From Algibacter pectinivorans (GTDB taxonomy: Bacteria > Bacteroidota > Bacteroidia > Flavobacteriales > Flavobacteriaceae): a stretch of DNA of 64,000 bases. Location of the stretch: contig NZ_FOMI01000003.1 in NCBI RefSeq assembly GCF_900112595.1, positions 434,001-498,000 on the forward strand, read 5' to 3'. The notes beneath the pieces are model-generated. The model saw only the letters and a list, made by a program, of their open reading frames with translations. It ran no database searches and was not told the origin of the DNA. Of this stretch, positions 53,099 through 61,299 are shown piece by piece. Positions within the stretch are counted from its first letter, which is position 1; every line of letters starts with the position of its first letter. The position numbers were made by a program, and so were the translations under genes.

Positions 53099-53911
53099 AT
53101 GGAAAAATTACCAAAAATTGCAATGCCTTTAATTATTGGGGCAGTTATACTTTTTATTATCATATCAAAATCGCTAGTTACTATTGGTCCTGGTGAAGGT
53201 GGCGTGTTATTTGAGCCGCTTGGAGATGGTATTAATACCGAAAGAACATACGGAGAGGGATTTCATATTGTTGCACCTTGGAACGACATGATTGTCCAAA
53301 AAGTGCGTCAGCAATCCATTTCAGAGAACATGAATGTACTGTCTGTAAACGGACTGGATATTACTGTAAGCGGAACGATTTGGTTCGAGCCAGAATTTAA
53401 AAATTTAGGCTTATTAATACAAACCAAAGGAGAAGATTACATTAGAGAATTACTAAATCCAGCTATTAACGCCGCTGCAAAAAGTGTAGTAGGACGTTAT
53501 ACACCAGAGCAATTATACTCCAGTAAAAGAGATATTATTGAGTTGGAAATTTTAGAAGAAGTAAGAAACGAACTCGACGGACAATATGTTAACGTTAAAC
53601 GTGTACTTGTTGAAAATGTAAAATTACCAACTACCATTAAAGATGCTATTGAGCGTAAACTAAAGCAAGAGCAAGAGTCTTTAGAGTACGAATTTAGATT
53701 AGTAACCGCTAAAAAAGAGGCCGAAAAAGTAATTATTGAGGCGCAAGGTAAAGCGGATGCTAATAGGATATTAAGCGCTTCTTTAACCGATAAAATTTTG
53801 CAGGATAAAGGTATTGAAGCTACGGTTAAACTATCGGAATCGCCTAATAGTAAAACTATTATAATTGGTTCTGGAGATACGGGCTTACCTATCATTTTAG
53901 GTAATCAGTAA
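53099..53911 (+). CDS. prohibitin/SPFH-family membrane protein
   Basis: The 270-residue protein has one N-terminal membrane helix (about 6-25) followed by the SPFH domain (GPGEGGVLFEPLGDG, FHIVAPWNDM, QQSISENMNVLSVNGLDITV). A helical C-terminal region (about 165-225) would form coiled coils in oligomeric rings. Members organise membrane microdomains or guard proteases; the role here is unknown. Confidence 0.9.
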   Translation: MEKLPKIAMPLIIGAVILFIIISKSLVTIGPGEGGVLFEPLGDGINTERTYGEGFHIVAPWNDMIVQKVRQQSISENMNVLSVNGLDITVSGTIWFEPEFKNLGLLIQTKGEDYIRELLNPAINAAAKSVVGRYTPEQLYSSKRDIIELEILEEVRNELDGQYVNVKRVLVENVKLPTTIKDAIERKLKQEQESLEYEFRLVTAKKEAEKVIIEAQGKADANRILSASLTDKILQDKGIEATVKLSESPNSKTIIIGSGDTGLPIILGNQ

Positions 53912-53953: not shown

Positions 53954-54069
53954 ATTTTGAATTTTTTAAGTGATAATATTTAAAATTATTGAATTGTTTT
54001 AATAATTACATTTATTATTAGGATTTATTCATATAAATTTTAGATATTTGTTCAGATAAAAAAAAGAAC

Positions 54070-54123
54070 ATGACTTTTATTCAATTACATCATCATTTTC
54101 ATATTTGCTCTCAAGCGAAGTGA
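54070..54123 (+). CDS. hisL: histidine operon leader peptide
   Basis: A 17-codon frame encodes MTFIQLHHHFHICSQAK. Four of the codons at 54088-54102 are CAT (His), in the order His-His-His-Phe-His. It lies 110 bases upstream of hisG and overlaps the attenuator hairpins. It would sense charged tRNA-His through ribosome stalling. Confidence 0.85.
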   Translation: MTFIQLHHHFHICSQAK

Positions 54124-54155
54124 AAATGTATTGAGTAAAATCAGCATATATTTCT

Positions 54156-54187
54156 AAACCCGTTTGAGACAATCAAGCGGGTTTTTT
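54156..54187 (+). terminator. attenuator terminator of the histidine operon
   Basis: A 12-base stem, with one G-U pair, joins 54156-54167 and 54173-54184 around a five-base loop (GACAA) and runs into six T. Confidence 0.9.
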
Positions 54188-54233
54188 AATTCTAATGCCA
54201 ACTAGATTGTTTCAAACTCATAAAAACAAGATA

Positions 54234-55091
54234 ATGAGTAAATTAAGAATTGCAGTACAGAAATCGGGTCGTTTAAATGAAGATTCGATGCAAATATTAA
54301 AAGACATTGGTATTTCTATTGATAATGGAAAAGATCAATTAAAAGCTTCGGCTAGAAATTTCCCTGTTGAAGTATTCTATTTAAGAAACGGCGACATTCC
54401 GCAGTATTTAAAAGATGGCGTAGTAGATGCCGCTATTATTGGCGAGAATGTTTTAATTGAAAAAGGAAACGACTTAAAGTTTGTAGAGCGTTTAGGCTTT
54501 TCGAAATGTAAAGTTTCTATTGCCGTTCCTAAAGATTCAAAGGATAATTCTTTAAAGGACTTAAACGGTAAAAAAATAGCAACTTCGTACCCAGAAACTG
54601 TTAAAAAGTTTTTAAAAGAACAAAATATTGATGCCCAATTACACATCATTAACGGATCGGTAGAAATTGCGCCAAACATTGGTTTAGCCGATGGTATATG
54701 CGATATCGTTTCTAGTGGTAGTACTTTATTTAAAAATGGATTAAAAGAGATTGAAGTCTTATTAAAATCTGAAGCTGTATTGGCTGTTTCCCCAATTTTA
54801 AATGATGAAAAACAAGCCATTTTAGATACTATTCAATTTAGAATACAATCTGTTTTAAAAGGTAGAGATTCTAAATATGTTTTGCTTAACGCGCCTAATG
54901 ATAAGTTGGAAGACATTATTGCTTTATTACCAGGTATGAAGAGCCCAACAGTATTGCCATTAGCGCAAGAAGGCTGGAGCTCTGTACACTCGGTAATTCC
55001 TAAAAATGACTTTTGGAATATCATAGAGGGTTTAAAAGCAAATGGAGCACAAGGTATTTTAGTGTGTCCAATTGAAAAAATGGTGCTTTAA
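54234..55091 (+). CDS. hisG: ATP phosphoribosyltransferase (long form)
   Basis: The 285-residue protein is HisG, which joins ATP and PRPP in the first step of histidine synthesis. The start at 54234 (MSKLRIAVQKSGRL) fits the family; an ATG at 54195 would add 13 unrelated residues. Its length and C-terminal regulatory part (about 210-285) mark the long form, which is feedback-inhibited by histidine and needs no HisZ. It is the first structural gene behind the attenuator. Confidence 0.95.
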   Translation: MSKLRIAVQKSGRLNEDSMQILKDIGISIDNGKDQLKASARNFPVEVFYLRNGDIPQYLKDGVVDAAIIGENVLIEKGNDLKFVERLGFSKCKVSIAVPKDSKDNSLKDLNGKKIATSYPETVKKFLKEQNIDAQLHIINGSVEIAPNIGLADGICDIVSSGSTLFKNGLKEIEVLLKSEAVLAVSPILNDEKQAILDTIQFRIQSVLKGRDSKYVLLNAPNDKLEDIIALLPGMKSPTVLPLAQEGWSSVHSVIPKNDFWNIIEGLKANGAQGILVCPIEKMVL

Positions 55092-55100
55092 TCGCTTATC

Positions 55101-56384
55101 ATGAAAATTATAAATAATCCAAATAAAGAAAGTTGGTCGGATGTTTTAAAACGACCAACGCAGACAGTTGGTGATATAGAATCCATCGTTAACGAGATAT
55201 TTAAAGATGTTTCTATTAACGGCGATGACGCGATAAAAACATATACCGAAAGATTTGATGGTATTCGTTTAGAAAATAATGAAGTTTCAGTTTCAGAAAT
55301 TGAAAATGCCATTGCTAAAGTACCAGAAAACCTTAAAAATGCTATAATTAAGGCCAAAGGTAATATTGAAGCTTTCCATACCGCCCAAAAAACAGAAAAA
55401 GTAGCTATTGAAACTACTAAAGGTGTACAATGTTGGCAGGAAAAACGACCTATTCAAAAAGTAGGTTTGTATATCCCTGGTGGCACAGCGCCTTTGTTTT
55501 CAACCGTTTTAATGTTGGCGGTTCCTGCTCAAATTGCGGGTTGTAAAGAGATTGTGCTATGTTCGCCACCAAATAAAGCAGGCGAATTAGCACCCGAAAT
55601 TTTATTTGCTGCCAAACTTTGTGGCGTTACTAAAATTATAAAAGTAGGAGGTATTCAGGCCGTTGCTGGACTTACGTTTGGCACAGAAACTATTCCGCAG
55701 GTTTATAAAATTTTCGGACCAGGAAATCAATTTGTAACCGTTGCCAAACAACTAGCAACTAAACATGGTGTGGCTATCGATATGCCTGCAGGTCCAAGTG
55801 AATTACTAATTGTGGCCGACGAAACGGCTAATGCGTCTTATATCGCTTCAGACTTGTTAAGTCAAGCTGAGCATGGTGCAGATAGTCAAGTAATACTAGT
55901 GGCGACTTCTAAAACATTAATTGATAATGTTTCGGATGAAGTTGAAAAACAATTAAATGTCCTTCCGCGTAAAGCAATTGCCGAAAAAGCCATAGCCAAC
56001 TCAAAGTTGATTTATGTTGAAAACGATACTATTGCCCTCGAATTAATTAACGAATACGGTCCGGAGCATTTTATAATTTGTTCTAAAAATGAAGATTTGT
56101 ATGTAGATGGTATAAGCAATGCAGGTTCCGTTTTTATTGGGGATTATACACCAGAAAGTGCTGGCGATTATGCCTCGGGAACCAACCATACATTACCAAC
56201 TAATGGCTTTTCTAAAGCCTATTCCGGAGTTAATTTAGATAGCTTTTTAAAGAGCATGACGTTTCAAAAAATATCAAAGGCAGGCCTTTTAAATATTGGC
56301 GAAACTATTGAGTTAATGGCAGAAGCAGAAGGTTTACAGGCTCATAAAAATGCTGTAAGTATTCGTTTAAAAGATTTAAAATGA
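55101..56384 (+). CDS. hisD: histidinol dehydrogenase
   Basis: The 427-residue protein is HisD, which carries out the last two oxidations of histidine synthesis with NAD and zinc. It has GLYIPGGTAPLFSTVLM, AGPSELLIVADE and the SAGDYASGTNHTLPT segment, which holds zinc and substrate ligands. The end overlaps hisC by four bases (ATGA). Confidence 0.96.
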   Translation: MKIINNPNKESWSDVLKRPTQTVGDIESIVNEIFKDVSINGDDAIKTYTERFDGIRLENNEVSVSEIENAIAKVPENLKNAIIKAKGNIEAFHTAQKTEKVAIETTKGVQCWQEKRPIQKVGLYIPGGTAPLFSTVLMLAVPAQIAGCKEIVLCSPPNKAGELAPEILFAAKLCGVTKIIKVGGIQAVAGLTFGTETIPQVYKIFGPGNQFVTVAKQLATKHGVAIDMPAGPSELLIVADETANASYIASDLLSQAEHGADSQVILVATSKTLIDNVSDEVEKQLNVLPRKAIAEKAIANSKLIYVENDTIALELINEYGPEHFIICSKNEDLYVDGISNAGSVFIGDYTPESAGDYASGTNHTLPTNGFSKAYSGVNLDSFLKSMTFQKISKAGLLNIGETIELMAEAEGLQAHKNAVSIRLKDLK

Positions 56385-57433
56385 TAAGGTTTAACATCCA
56401 AAATATAATTAGAGCGAACGTAAAAGCTATGAAAGCTTATAGTTCGGCGCGAGACGAATATGTTTCCGATGGTTCTAAAATGATTTTTTTAGATGCCAAC
56501 GAAAATCCATTCGAGAATGGTGTAAATCGTTATCCCGATCCGCTTCAGCGTTCATTAAAATCTGTATTATCGGAACAAAAAAATGTTCCAGAAAATCAAA
56601 TTTTACTTGGTAATGGAAGCGATGAAGTTTTAGATTTATTGTTTAGAGCTTTTTGCGAGCCAAAGCAAGATAATATCATCACATTACCTCCAACTTACGG
56701 TATGTATACCGTGTTATCTAATTTAAACGAAGTTGAGGAGCGTAAAGTGGAGTTAAATGAAAATTTTCAACCAAATGTTGAAGCCATTCTAGACACCATA
56801 GATGAAAACTCAAAAATGCTTTTCATTTGTTCGCCTAATAACCCAACAGGAAACCTTATTGCTTCAGATAAAATTAAAACATTACTTGAAAATTTTAATG
56901 GTTTAGTAGTCATTGATGAAGCCTACATCGATTTTTCAAATCAAGATAGTTGGGTTTCAGAATTAAGTAATTACCCGAATTTAATCGTTACTCAAACGCT
57001 ATCAAAAGCTTATGGTTTGGCAGGAATTCGTTTAGGTCTGTGTTTCGCTTCCGCGGAAATTATTTCAGTTTTAAATAAAATCAAACCGCCGTATAACGTT
57101 AATGAGTTAACTCAAAAACGAGCATTAGAGCGTATTTCGAACTTAGAAGCGGTAAAGGAAGAAGTAAAATCGGTTTTAAAAGAACGTGATATATTAATTG
57201 AAGCTTTAAAAAATATCAATTTTGTAGAAACCATTTTTCCTACCGAAGCTAATTTTGTTTTGGCTAGGGTAGATGATGCTACTAAACGATACAACCAGTT
57301 AATAGCAAACGGTATTGTTATTAGAAACCGAACAACCCAACCATTATGTAAAAACACATTACGTTTTACGGTTGGAACCGAAATTGAAAATAAAACATTA
57401 ATTTCTGCTTTAAGGCAGTTAGCAATTAGCTAA
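56381..57433 (+). CDS. hisC: histidinol-phosphate aminotransferase
   Basis: The 350-residue protein is HisC, a PLP-dependent class I/II aminotransferase. It has [12 protein letters not shown], a PLP-contact segment CSPNNPTGN and the PLP lysine in [15 protein letters not shown]. It overlaps hisD by four bases and precedes hisB by 10. Confidence 0.95.
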
Positions 57434-57443
57434 AAGCATAAAT

Positions 57444-58580
57444 ATGAAAAAAGTACTTTTTATAGACCGAGATGGGACATTGGTTTTAGAACCACCTGTT
57501 GATTATCAATTAGATAGTTTAGAGAAGCTAGAATATTTTCCAAAAGTATTTCAATACATGGCTAAAATAGCCAATGAGTTGGATTATGAGTTGGTTATGG
57601 TTACAAATCAAGATGGTTTAGGTACCGATAGCTTTCCAGAAGATACCTTTTGGCCAGCCCAAAACAAAATAATTGATGCCTTTGCTAAGGAAGGCGTGGT
57701 GTTTTCTGAAGTATTTATAGATAAAACGTTTCCTCATGAAAATGCAGAAACGCGTAAACCTAGAACAGGCCTATTAACTAAGTATTTTTCTGAAGATTAT
57801 GATTTAGAAAATTCATTCGTTTTAGGAGATAGAATTACAGACATGGAATTGGCAAAAAATCTGGGAGCAAAAGGTATTTATTTATCTGAAAACCCAGAAT
57901 TAGGAGCCGATGAAATTGAAACTTCAAAACAAGATATTCAAGATTGTATTGCCTTAACAAGTACAGATTGGTCGGCTATTTATGAGTTTTTAAAACTTGA
58001 AAGTCGTGTTGAAGAAATTACGCGTAACACCAATGAAACCAAAATTTATATAAAATTAAATTTAGATGGTTCAGGTAAAAATGATATAGATACAGGACTG
58101 TCTTTCTTCGACCATATGTTAGATCAAATTGGTCGCCACGGCGCCATGGATTTAACAGTAAAAGTTGATGGCGATTTAGAAGTTGACGAACACCATACTA
58201 TAGAAGACACTATGATTGCTTTAGGCGAGTTATTTAATAAAGCTTTAGGTAATAAATTAGGTATTGAACGTTACGGATTTTGTTTACCAATGGACGATTG
58301 TTTAGCCCAAGTTGCTGTCGATTTTGGAGGTAGAAATTGGTTGGAATGGGATGCCGAATTTAAACGTGAAAAAATTGGTGATATGCCAACCGAAATGTTT
58401 TTCCATTTATTTAAGTCATTTACAGATGGTGCTAAATGTAATTTAAATGTAAAAGCAGAAGGTATTAACGAACACCACAAAATAGAAGGTATTTTTAAGG
58501 CTTTTGCAAAAGCAATGAAAATGGCTGTAAAAAGAGACCCTAACAAAATGTTTTTACCATCAACTAAAGGAATGCTTTAA
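57444..58580 (+). CDS. hisB: bifunctional histidinol-phosphatase / imidazoleglycerol-phosphate dehydratase
   Basis: The 378-residue protein is a fused HisB. The N-terminal HAD phosphatase has [12 protein letters not shown] and [12 protein letters not shown]. The C-terminal dehydratase (about 190-378) has [22 protein letters not shown] and [16 protein letters not shown] with the manganese-binding histidines. It overlaps hisH by one base (TAATG). Confidence 0.96.
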
Positions 58581-59161
58581 TGAAATTAGTTATAATAAAT
58601 TATGGTGCTGGAAATATAAAAAGTATTCAGTTTGCCTTTAAAAGACTGGGTGTAGATGCTATTTTATCTAATAATCCAGATGAAATTAAAGAAGCCGATA
58701 AAATAATTTTCCCGGGTGTAGGCGAAGCGAGTACTGCTATGAATATGCTTAAAGAAAGTGGGTTAGATAAATTAATTCCTACCTTAAAACAACCGGTTTT
58801 AGGCATTTGTTTAGGTATGCAATTATTGTGTAAACACACAGAAGAAGGCGACACTAAAGGTATTGGCATATTTCAAACCAATGTAAAACGCTTCACAAAC
58901 AAGGTGAAAGTGCCGCAAATGGGTTGGAATGTCATTAAAGATTTAAAATCTGATTTGTTTAAAGGCATTAAAGAAAGTGAATACATGTATTTAGTGCATA
59001 GTTATTATGCAGAGCATTGTAACGAAACTATTGCTAAAACAGATTACGGTCTTAATTATGCTTCTGCTTTGCAACACGAAAACTTTTACGGTGTGCAGTT
59101 TCATCCAGAAAAGAGTGGCGTTGAGGGCGCTAAAATATTAAAGAATTTTTTAGAATTATAA
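58580..59161 (+). CDS. hisH: imidazole glycerol phosphate synthase, glutamine amidotransferase subunit
   Basis: The 193-residue protein is HisH, a class I glutaminase that feeds ammonia to HisF. The catalytic cysteine is in GICLGMQLL and the His-Glu pair is in [10 protein letters not shown]. It begins at the last base of hisB and ends one base before hisA. Confidence 0.95.
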
Positions 59162-59162
59162 T

Positions 59163-59897
59163 ATGAGAATAATACCAGCCATTGACATTATAGACGGAAA
59201 ATGTGTTCGCCTTACAAAAGGAGATTACGATACTAAAAAAATATATAACGAAAACCCTTTGGAGGTTGCCAAAATGTTTGAAGGGTCCGGCATTGAGTAT
59301 TTACATTTAGTAGATTTAGATGGTGCCAAGGCGAAGCATATTGTCAACTATAAAGTCTTGGAACAAATAGCTTCAAAAACCAAATTAAAAATAGATTTTG
59401 GTGGTGGTTTAAAAACTAACGAAGATTTACATATTGCTTTTAATTCTGGAGCTAGACAAATTACAGGAGGTAGTATTGCGGTTAAAGATGCTGAAACTTT
59501 TGAAGGTTGGATATCTAAATACGGCGGAAACAAAATTATTTTAGGTGCCGATAGCGATGCAGGGAAAATTTCTATTAGTGGCTGGATGGAACAAAGTAAA
59601 GAAGATGTTATTCCATTTATTAAAGGCTACCAAAAGAAAGGTATTCAATATGTTATTTGTACAGATATTTCTAAAGATGGTATGTTAGAAGGTCCTTCTT
59701 TCGATTTATATAAAGAAATTATTGATTCTTGCAGTAACAGTAGTAGCGGACAGTCTATAAAACTTATAGCATCAGGAGGGATTTCTCATATCGATGAGTT
59801 ACCTAAATTAATCGAGTTAGGATGCGAAGGCGTTATTATAGGAAAAGCGATTTACGAAAATAGAATTAAACTACACCAACTAGAAAAATTTGTATAA
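59163..59897 (+). CDS. hisA: ProFAR isomerase
   Basis: The 244-residue TIM-barrel protein is HisA. It starts [17 protein letters not shown], with the first catalytic Asp in the AIDI segment, and has [12 protein letters not shown] with the second Asp. The two phosphate-binding glycine regions ([13 protein letters not shown]) are present. It shares one base with hisF. Confidence 0.95.
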
Positions 59898-60652
59898 TGC
59901 TAACAAAAAGAATTATACCTTGTTTAGATATTAAAAACGGAAGAACTGTAAAAGGTGTTAATTTTGTGGATTTAAGAGACGCAGGAGATCCCGTTGAATT
60001 GGCTAAACAGTATGCAAATCAAGGGGCAGACGAATTAGTATTTCTAGATATTTCTGCTACTTTAGAAGGTCGCGGAACCACTTTAGACATGGTTTTACAC
60101 GTAGCCGAACAAGTTAATATTCCATTTACCGTTGGTGGAGGCATTTCTAGCGTAGAGCATGTTGATGCTTTATTACAATGTGGTGCAGATAAGGTGTCTA
60201 TCAACTCCTCTGCTGTTAAAAGGCCAGAATTGGTAAATGAATTATCAAACAAATTTGGAAGTCAATGTGTTGTTGTCGCTATTGATGCAAAACAAATAGA
60301 TGGCCAATGGAAAGTACATTTAGCAGGCGGAAGTATTCCAACAGAAATCGATTTATTTGAATGGGCAAAAGAAGTCGAAGAACGTGGAGCAGGAGAGATT
60401 CTATTCACATCAATGGATCATGATGGTACTAAAAATGGATTTGCAAATGAAGCTTTAGCTAGATTATCTGAAGAATTAAACATTCCCATAATAGCCTCGG
60501 GTGGAGCTGGAAATGTACAACACTTTGTAGACACTTTTAAAGAAGGAAAATCTGATGCAGCCTTGGCAGCAAGTGTGTTTCATTTTGGTGAAATTCCAAT
60601 TCCAGAATTAAAAAAAGAATTAAAAAGTAATAATATAGAAGTACGATTATAA
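59897..60652 (+). CDS. hisF: imidazole glycerol phosphate synthase, cyclase subunit
   Basis: The 251-residue TIM-barrel protein is HisF, partner of HisH. It begins [20 protein letters not shown] with the catalytic Asp in CLDI and has [13 protein letters not shown] with the second Asp. VGGGIS and IASGGAGN are the phosphate sites. Confidence 0.96.
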
Positions 60653-60705
60653 ATCGCGCGTGTTATGCTTAACTTGGTTTGGCATTTCAATAATAAAAAA
60701 TAATC

Positions 60706-61299
60706 ATGACCATAAAATACGACTCAAACGGATTAGTTCCAGCTATTATTCAAGATGCCACAACAAAAAATGTGTTAATGTTGGGCTATATGAATGCTGA
60801 ATCTTACGAGAAAACTATAGAAACTAAGAAGGTTACTTTTTTTAGTAGAAGTAAACAGCGCCTTTGGACTAAAGGTGAAGAAAGCGGTAATTTTTTAAAC
60901 CTTGTAGATATAAAAAATGATTGTGATAACGATTCTTTACTTATTCAAGTTAATCCAGTAGGACCAACATGCCATACCGGTACAGATACCTGTTGGAAAG
61001 AGGAAAACAAATCTAATTATGGTTTCTTTTCTACTTTAGAAGATGTTATTGCAGAGCGTGTAGCTAATAAGGATACCAAAAAATCTTATGTGGCTAGTTT
61101 GTTTGCTAAAGGTATAAATAAAGTAGCTCAAAAAGTAGGCGAGGAGGCTGTGGAAACCGTTATTGAGGCTATGGATAATAACGATGAGTTATTTTTATAT
61201 GAATCGGCAGATTTGTTGTTTCATTACCTAATGCTTTTACAAGCCAAAGGATTTACCCTAAAGGATATCGAGAAAGAATTAATAGGAAGACACAAATAA
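60706..61299 (+). CDS. hisIE: bifunctional phosphoribosyl-AMP cyclohydrolase / phosphoribosyl-ATP pyrophosphatase
   Basis: The 197-residue protein fuses HisI (about 1-105) and HisE (about 110-197). The HisI part has LGYMNAESY, FFSRSKQRLWTKGEESGN and CHTGTDTCW, with the zinc cysteines. The HisE part has KVGEEAVETVIEA and the ESADLLFHYL segment. It closes the operon; a terminator follows immediately. Confidence 0.95.
   Translation: MTIKYDSNGLVPAIIQDATTKNVLMLGYMNAESYEKTIETKKVTFFSRSKQRLWTKGEESGNFLNLVDIKNDCDNDSLLIQVNPVGPTCHTGTDTCWKEENKSNYGFFSTLEDVIAERVANKDTKKSYVASLFAKGINKVAQKVGEEAVETVIEAMDNNDELFLYESADLLFHYLMLLQAKGFTLKDIEKELIGRHK

Follow-up and report, generated by a model that had tools for sequence, protein, structure and literature searches.

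The his operon of Algibacter pectinivorans, a member of the Flavobacteriaceae in the phylum Bacteroidota, is preceded by a short reading frame rich in histidine codons and by a hairpin that ends in a run of T, and the question that this locus raises is whether the operon is under attenuation control of the enteric type, as the original prediction proposed. Amino acid attenuators have been regarded as largely gamma-proteobacterial, and an origin in that group has been suggested (PMC3766115). Surveys place them chiefly in Proteobacteria and later also in Firmicutes and Actinobacteria, his attenuators have been described in Firmicutes (PMC9413887), and a paper on the histidine genes of Bacteroidota brings up attenuation for enterics alone (PMC8305728). 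The part of the literature closest to our organism is an RNA-seq study of Flavobacterium psychrophilum, of the same family, which speaks of 'strong clues' of leader-peptide attenuation 5' of amino acid operons and whose main text is silent on the his operon and on the additional helix described below (PMC9723704). We found no his attenuator in Bacteroidota described by name in the open-access literature. Candidate attenuators in Bacteroidetes/Chlorobi were reportedly mentioned in 2004 in a survey by Vitreschak and colleagues, and we therefore do not claim to be the first to propose attenuation in general for this phylum.

The window analyzed here is the whole 64,000-nucleotide stretch of DNA that contains the operon, and the features of interest within it are listed in the table. 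We conclude with high confidence, from sequence, folding and comparison of relatives, that the element between the upstream gene (53099-53911, on the same strand as the leader) and hisG would attenuate transcription of the his operon in a ribosome-mediated manner. All of the sequence-level features of enteric-type control (leader, terminator, antiterminator and protector) are present in this member of the Bacteroidota, and the codon run of the leader, which is cognate to the operon, lies directly 5' of it. The eight genes hisG, hisD, hisC, hisB, hisH, hisA, hisF and hisIE are each above an NCBIfam cut-off.

Features of the his leader region and operon (positions within the window)
Feature	Position	Strand	Description
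Bacteroidota-type promoter	54018-54050	+	TTAGG (54018-54022) and GATATTTG (54043-54050), spacing N20
Leader ORF, MTFIQLHHHFHICSQAK	54070-54123	+	17 sense codons, four CAT; ATG 54070, TGA 54121-54123 (sequence)
Protector hairpin	54075-54140	+	54075-54085:54130-54140, 54094-54102:54120-54128, apical 54104-54109:54114-54119
Segment A, antiterminator 5' strand	54109-54117	+	Inside leader ORF (codons Ser-Gln-Ala); partner 54161-54169
Intrinsic terminator	54156-54187	+	54156-54167:54173-54184, U tract 54182-54187; independently found by terminator scan
Segment D, GATTGTTTCAAAC	54205-54217	+	Complementary to terminator 5' arm and loop 54162-54174, 13 bp, one G.U
Possible start-codon hairpin	54216-54239	+	ACTCAT (54216-54221) with ATGAGT (54234-54239); minimum-energy fold; general support weak
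hisG	54234-55091	+	ATP phosphoribosyltransferase, long form; TIGR00070, TIGR03455
hisD, hisC, hisB (bifunctional), hisH, hisA, hisF, hisIE	55101-61299	+	Same strand, closely spaced

The 17-codon leader with four CAT codons is present where it had been predicted, and the histidine codons occupy 54088-54096 and 54100-54102. The promoter lies 19 nt before the leader ATG and is conserved in the family, the pattern TT[TA]GG-N17..22-AnnTTTG being found in 106 of 193 family leaders compared with 0.05% in shuffles; transcription is expected to start at about 54055-54060. We also note an in-frame ATG at 54195 (54195-54236) that would add 13 residues to hisG and span segment D, and relatives favor the start at 54234.

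The leader is common well beyond this genome. Among hisG upstream regions sampled from genomes of the family, order, class and phylum, a short ORF with His-His-His occurs in 200 of 230, whereas only 0.35% of dinucleotide shuffles of the same regions contain one. The conserved leader that was expected 5' of hisG in Flavobacteriaceae is thus there, with His-His-His at 188 of 197 distinct upstream regions, an ORF with at least three histidines at all 197, and a recognized terminator after it at 186. The corresponding numbers, again for distinct upstream regions and in the order at least three His, His-His-His and recognized terminator, are 47, 39 and 38 of 49 in other families of the order, 14, 11 and 9 of 14 in other orders of the class, and 14, 10 and 7 of 20 in other classes; many of these loci come from close relatives and so are not independent events, and the His-His-His counts are the safer ones because the looser criterion of at least three His is reached by 11.8% of shuffles. 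Leader forms have diverged in the other orders and classes of the phylum, and no comparable leader was seen at loci with a very divergent hisG (about 30% identity), nor at one locus sampled from 0.6-Mb genomes. Overall, nearly all hisG genes of the sampled family are preceded by the putative his attenuator, which is also recognizable across much of Bacteroidota. Three loci from other classes of the phylum (L222, L223 and L226) have a His-rich leader ORF before hisG with no recognized terminator between them, and these may have another output, such as translational or Rho-dependent control.

Within the host genome, a covariance model built for the element gives a single strong hit, 5' of hisG (E 5e-26); a second his-type site was considered and set aside, the next model matches (33 and 30 bits) resembling plain hairpins. 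Another leader lies 5' of trpE in the same genome (L307, reverse strand, position 1278), where MNSILNNTWWWSFRN precedes a GGCTTGTC/GACAAGCC hairpin and a run of seven T, with the trpE-family gene after them, and it is likely a trp attenuator with the same design as the his leader. No leader was found in the upstream flank of ilvB examined in this genome.

The original prediction described three mutually exclusive pairings, and each of them can be formed at its coordinates; what does not hold is strict exclusivity of the stem 54094-54101:54121-54128 on its own. In that stem CATTTTCA pairs with TGAAAATG, which leaves 54109-54117 in the loop, and it is the apical stem 54104-54109:54114-54119 that excludes the antiterminator. 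Folding replaces the 8-bp stem as the whole protector with a hairpin of about 26 bp in all, at -20.8 kcal/mol and z -4.3. Across 42 diverse sequences, 75% of the protector cells are paired compared with 41-45% when the strands are slid, and 65 double-change cells are seen against 36 in shuffles (0/500). The codons for the Phe-Ile-Gln residues of the leader form the outer 5' strand of this hairpin, which would explain why those residues are conserved.

At the terminator, AAACCCGTTTGA (54156-54167) pairs with TCAAGCGGGTTT (54173-54184), with a folding z of -5.4. The six T that had been described as additional to this stem are present at 54182-54187, although three of them are already counted in the 12-bp stem, and all six lie directly 3' of its G-C-rich core. 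Terminator cells are 97.4% paired with 15 double-change cells against 2.2, and the protector and terminator are thus the covarying stems that had been anticipated, kept with compensatory changes across relatives. RNAalifold recovers the terminator alone from the alignment, which is expected with competing helices but is no proof of them, and the other helices were therefore tested as named structures.

The antiterminator is formed by TCTCAAGCG (54109-54117) and CGTTTGAGA (54161-54169) with one G.U pair, and its segment has a z of -4.3. The motif TCAAGCG indeed occurs both at 54111-54117 and at 54173-54179, such that the leader and the terminator 3' arm carry the same sequence. Antiterminator cells are 90.7% paired compared with 28-51% when slid, and within the family the pairing is nearly invariant with only slight covariation (10 double-change cells against 5.8). 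The terminator arm UCUGA is found only with leader CAGGCG (nine of nine scorable loci), and UUUGA with CAAGCG (132) or CAGGCG (27). Outside the family, the sequences of A and the terminator arm are quite different yet matching, with a mean of -14.9 kcal/mol for own pairs and -9.4 for swapped ones, and the antiterminator is retained in every group while its sequence changes. In three loci (L019, L119 and L167) the Gln codon CAA in the leader tail has become TAA, giving a shorter peptide in which the pairing of A is kept through U.G, which indicates that it is the RNA rather than the peptide tail that is conserved.

From this anatomy, the competition between the pairings, their conservation and the compensatory changes, we infer stalling, termination and read-through in the cell as follows. 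Polymerase would start about 10-15 nt before the leader ORF. When histidine is plentiful, the ribosome would reach the leader stop codon and cover segment A, the terminator 54156-54187 would form and transcription would stop; with no ribosome on the leader, A would be buried in the protector hairpin, and the terminator would again form and stop transcription. When charged His-tRNA is scarce, the ribosome would stall on the CAT run and block the protector, and A, which begins 7 nt after the last His codon and judging by that position would be left free by the stalled ribosome, would pair with the terminator 5' arm so that polymerase reads into hisG. In transcripts that continue past the terminator, the 5' arm and loop of the terminator would have segment D, next to the hisG start, as a further possible partner.

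Two other explanations deserve consideration. The terminator could merely end the transcript of the upstream gene, with the His-rich ORF incidental, and that gene does lie on the same strand and end at 53911; however, a conserved promoter stands between it and the leader, the leader contains a copy of the terminator arm that changes along with it, and the leader is present in nearly all relatives, all of which makes this reading very improbable. It is scarcely credible that the sensor of histidine is another kind of RNA, a T-box or a riboswitch, and not a translating ribosome. Elements of that type regulate his genes in Firmicutes (PMC9413887), but the window gives no Rfam match of this kind, and a conserved His codon run would have no purpose in such a system. 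Specifically, no Rfam 15 family is above its gathering threshold in the window, neither the T-box (RF00230) nor the His_leader (RF00514) covariance model has a match at the gathering threshold or at E<=10, and the only leader-type match at E<=10 is a sub-threshold Trp_leader, at 19.9 bits against 41.

The predicted attenuator is thus one that works like those of enterics and is outside the Rfam His_leader family. It shares with the his attenuator of gamma-proteobacteria (RF00514) a run of His codons in a short leader ORF, a protector, an antiterminator and a terminator before hisG, and departs from it in that segment A is inside the leader ORF, in its Bacteroidota promoter with a short 5' region, and in the extra helix formed by segment D. 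By description it also resembles the candidate his attenuators of the Bacillus cereus group, Peptostreptococcaceae and Erysipelotrichales, whose leader peptides have three to five His codons and which follow the same logic, although those belong to another phylum (PMC9413887).

Segment D and its helix are new to this analysis; the original prediction included neither them nor the full extent of the protector or the spread of the element among relatives. With the comparison anchored on the terminator arm and made over the 11-nt core of D, 74% of the 224 loci compared within the order have 10 or 11 of the 11 positions paired to the 5' arm and loop of the terminator, a level reached by 23% when D is swapped in from loci with other loops and by 2.7% when it is shuffled; fewer than nine pairs are formed in 38 of the 224. 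Loop and D change together (for example GACAA/UUGUU, GUAAA/UUUAC, GUACA/UGUAC, GCAAA/UUUGC and GUCAU/AUGGC), and at position 8, in the loop, the 97 distinct combinations include U-A (30), A-U (25), C-G (25) and U.G (7) pairs. The 5' end of the core is mostly 24-28 nt before hisG, and the minimum-energy fold of 54156-54270 has D paired with the terminator arm. In seven loci (L010, L014, L018, L023, L061, L067 and L098) the stretch between terminator and hisG is lengthened by additional sequence, which is often palindromic, and several of these loci have an altered D or none. The frequent G.U pairs between D and the terminator 5' arm point to an RNA rather than a DNA interaction and disfavor D as an operator with an inverted repeat for a repressor, and D is not a second terminator, there being no U tract after it. 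Helix D is, on this comparative evidence, a lineage-specific conserved addition that makes the putative attenuator a variant of the enteric-like design. Because D is transcribed only once polymerase has gone beyond the terminator, it can have no part in the termination decision itself.

What D does is a matter on which there are two models to consider. In one, which we consider somewhat less likely than not but the likelier of the two, D serves the message and not the switch: after read-through it would displace A or the terminator 3' arm from the 5' arm, such that the terminator does not refold, the leader is cleared for later ribosomes, or the 5' region is protected from decay. Transcription of D only after the terminator fits this well, as do the preference of the arm for D in the fold of 54156-54270 and the generality of the D:arm pairing when the pairing with the hisG start is not general, although the 38 loci with fewer than nine pairs stand against it. 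The other model, a tentative one that we consider unlikely, adds dual control, with D hiding the hisG start when the terminator hairpin is folded and freeing it when D is taken up by the terminator 5' arm and loop, so that translation of hisG from read-through messages would be set by the switch as well. Such a role would account for how strongly the D:arm pairing is conserved, and in many lineages the hisG start can be paired by D or its neighbor, some of them showing matching changes: the start ATGAGTAC is found with D TGTACTC, ATGAACAA with TTTGTTC and ATGAGTTC with GAACTC. A few lineages pair the start by Watson-Crick and leave G.U for the arm, and in a folding model the start is unpaired at 0.59 with D held by the arm and at 0.39 with the terminator folded, a difference that is partly built in since D was simply removed. 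However, own and swapped starts are nearly equal in the family (-7.3 and -6.9 kcal/mol), the native D outperforms shuffled D at the 0.05 level in just 19 of the 82 distinct cases, there is no signal for the start types ATGACAAAA, ATGACTAAA or ATGAATAAA, and the match is absent from several lineages. In the clade to which the window belongs, D's two pairings share two bases only and are hardly exclusive. We thus reject D:start pairing as a general rule, the match being partial only.

The dual-control idea has an analogy in the trp leader of Bacillus subtilis, where a single leader with TRAP controls both termination and access to the ribosome-binding site of the first gene; there is no sequence relation, and the sensor there is a protein and not a ribosome. 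Were dual control to apply, and we think it doubtful, the element would be a four-partner switch in Flavobacteriales, in which the terminator 5' arm and loop chooses the terminator 3' arm, the leader tail or D, and D chooses that strand or the hisG start, so that one event sensed by a ribosome would govern the operon's transcription together with the translation of hisG.

Rfam 15 is without a curated RNA family for this Bacteroidota his element. Bacteroidota rarely use Shine-Dalgarno-led initiation, and the element described here is well suited to asking whether these bacteria couple transcription to translation.
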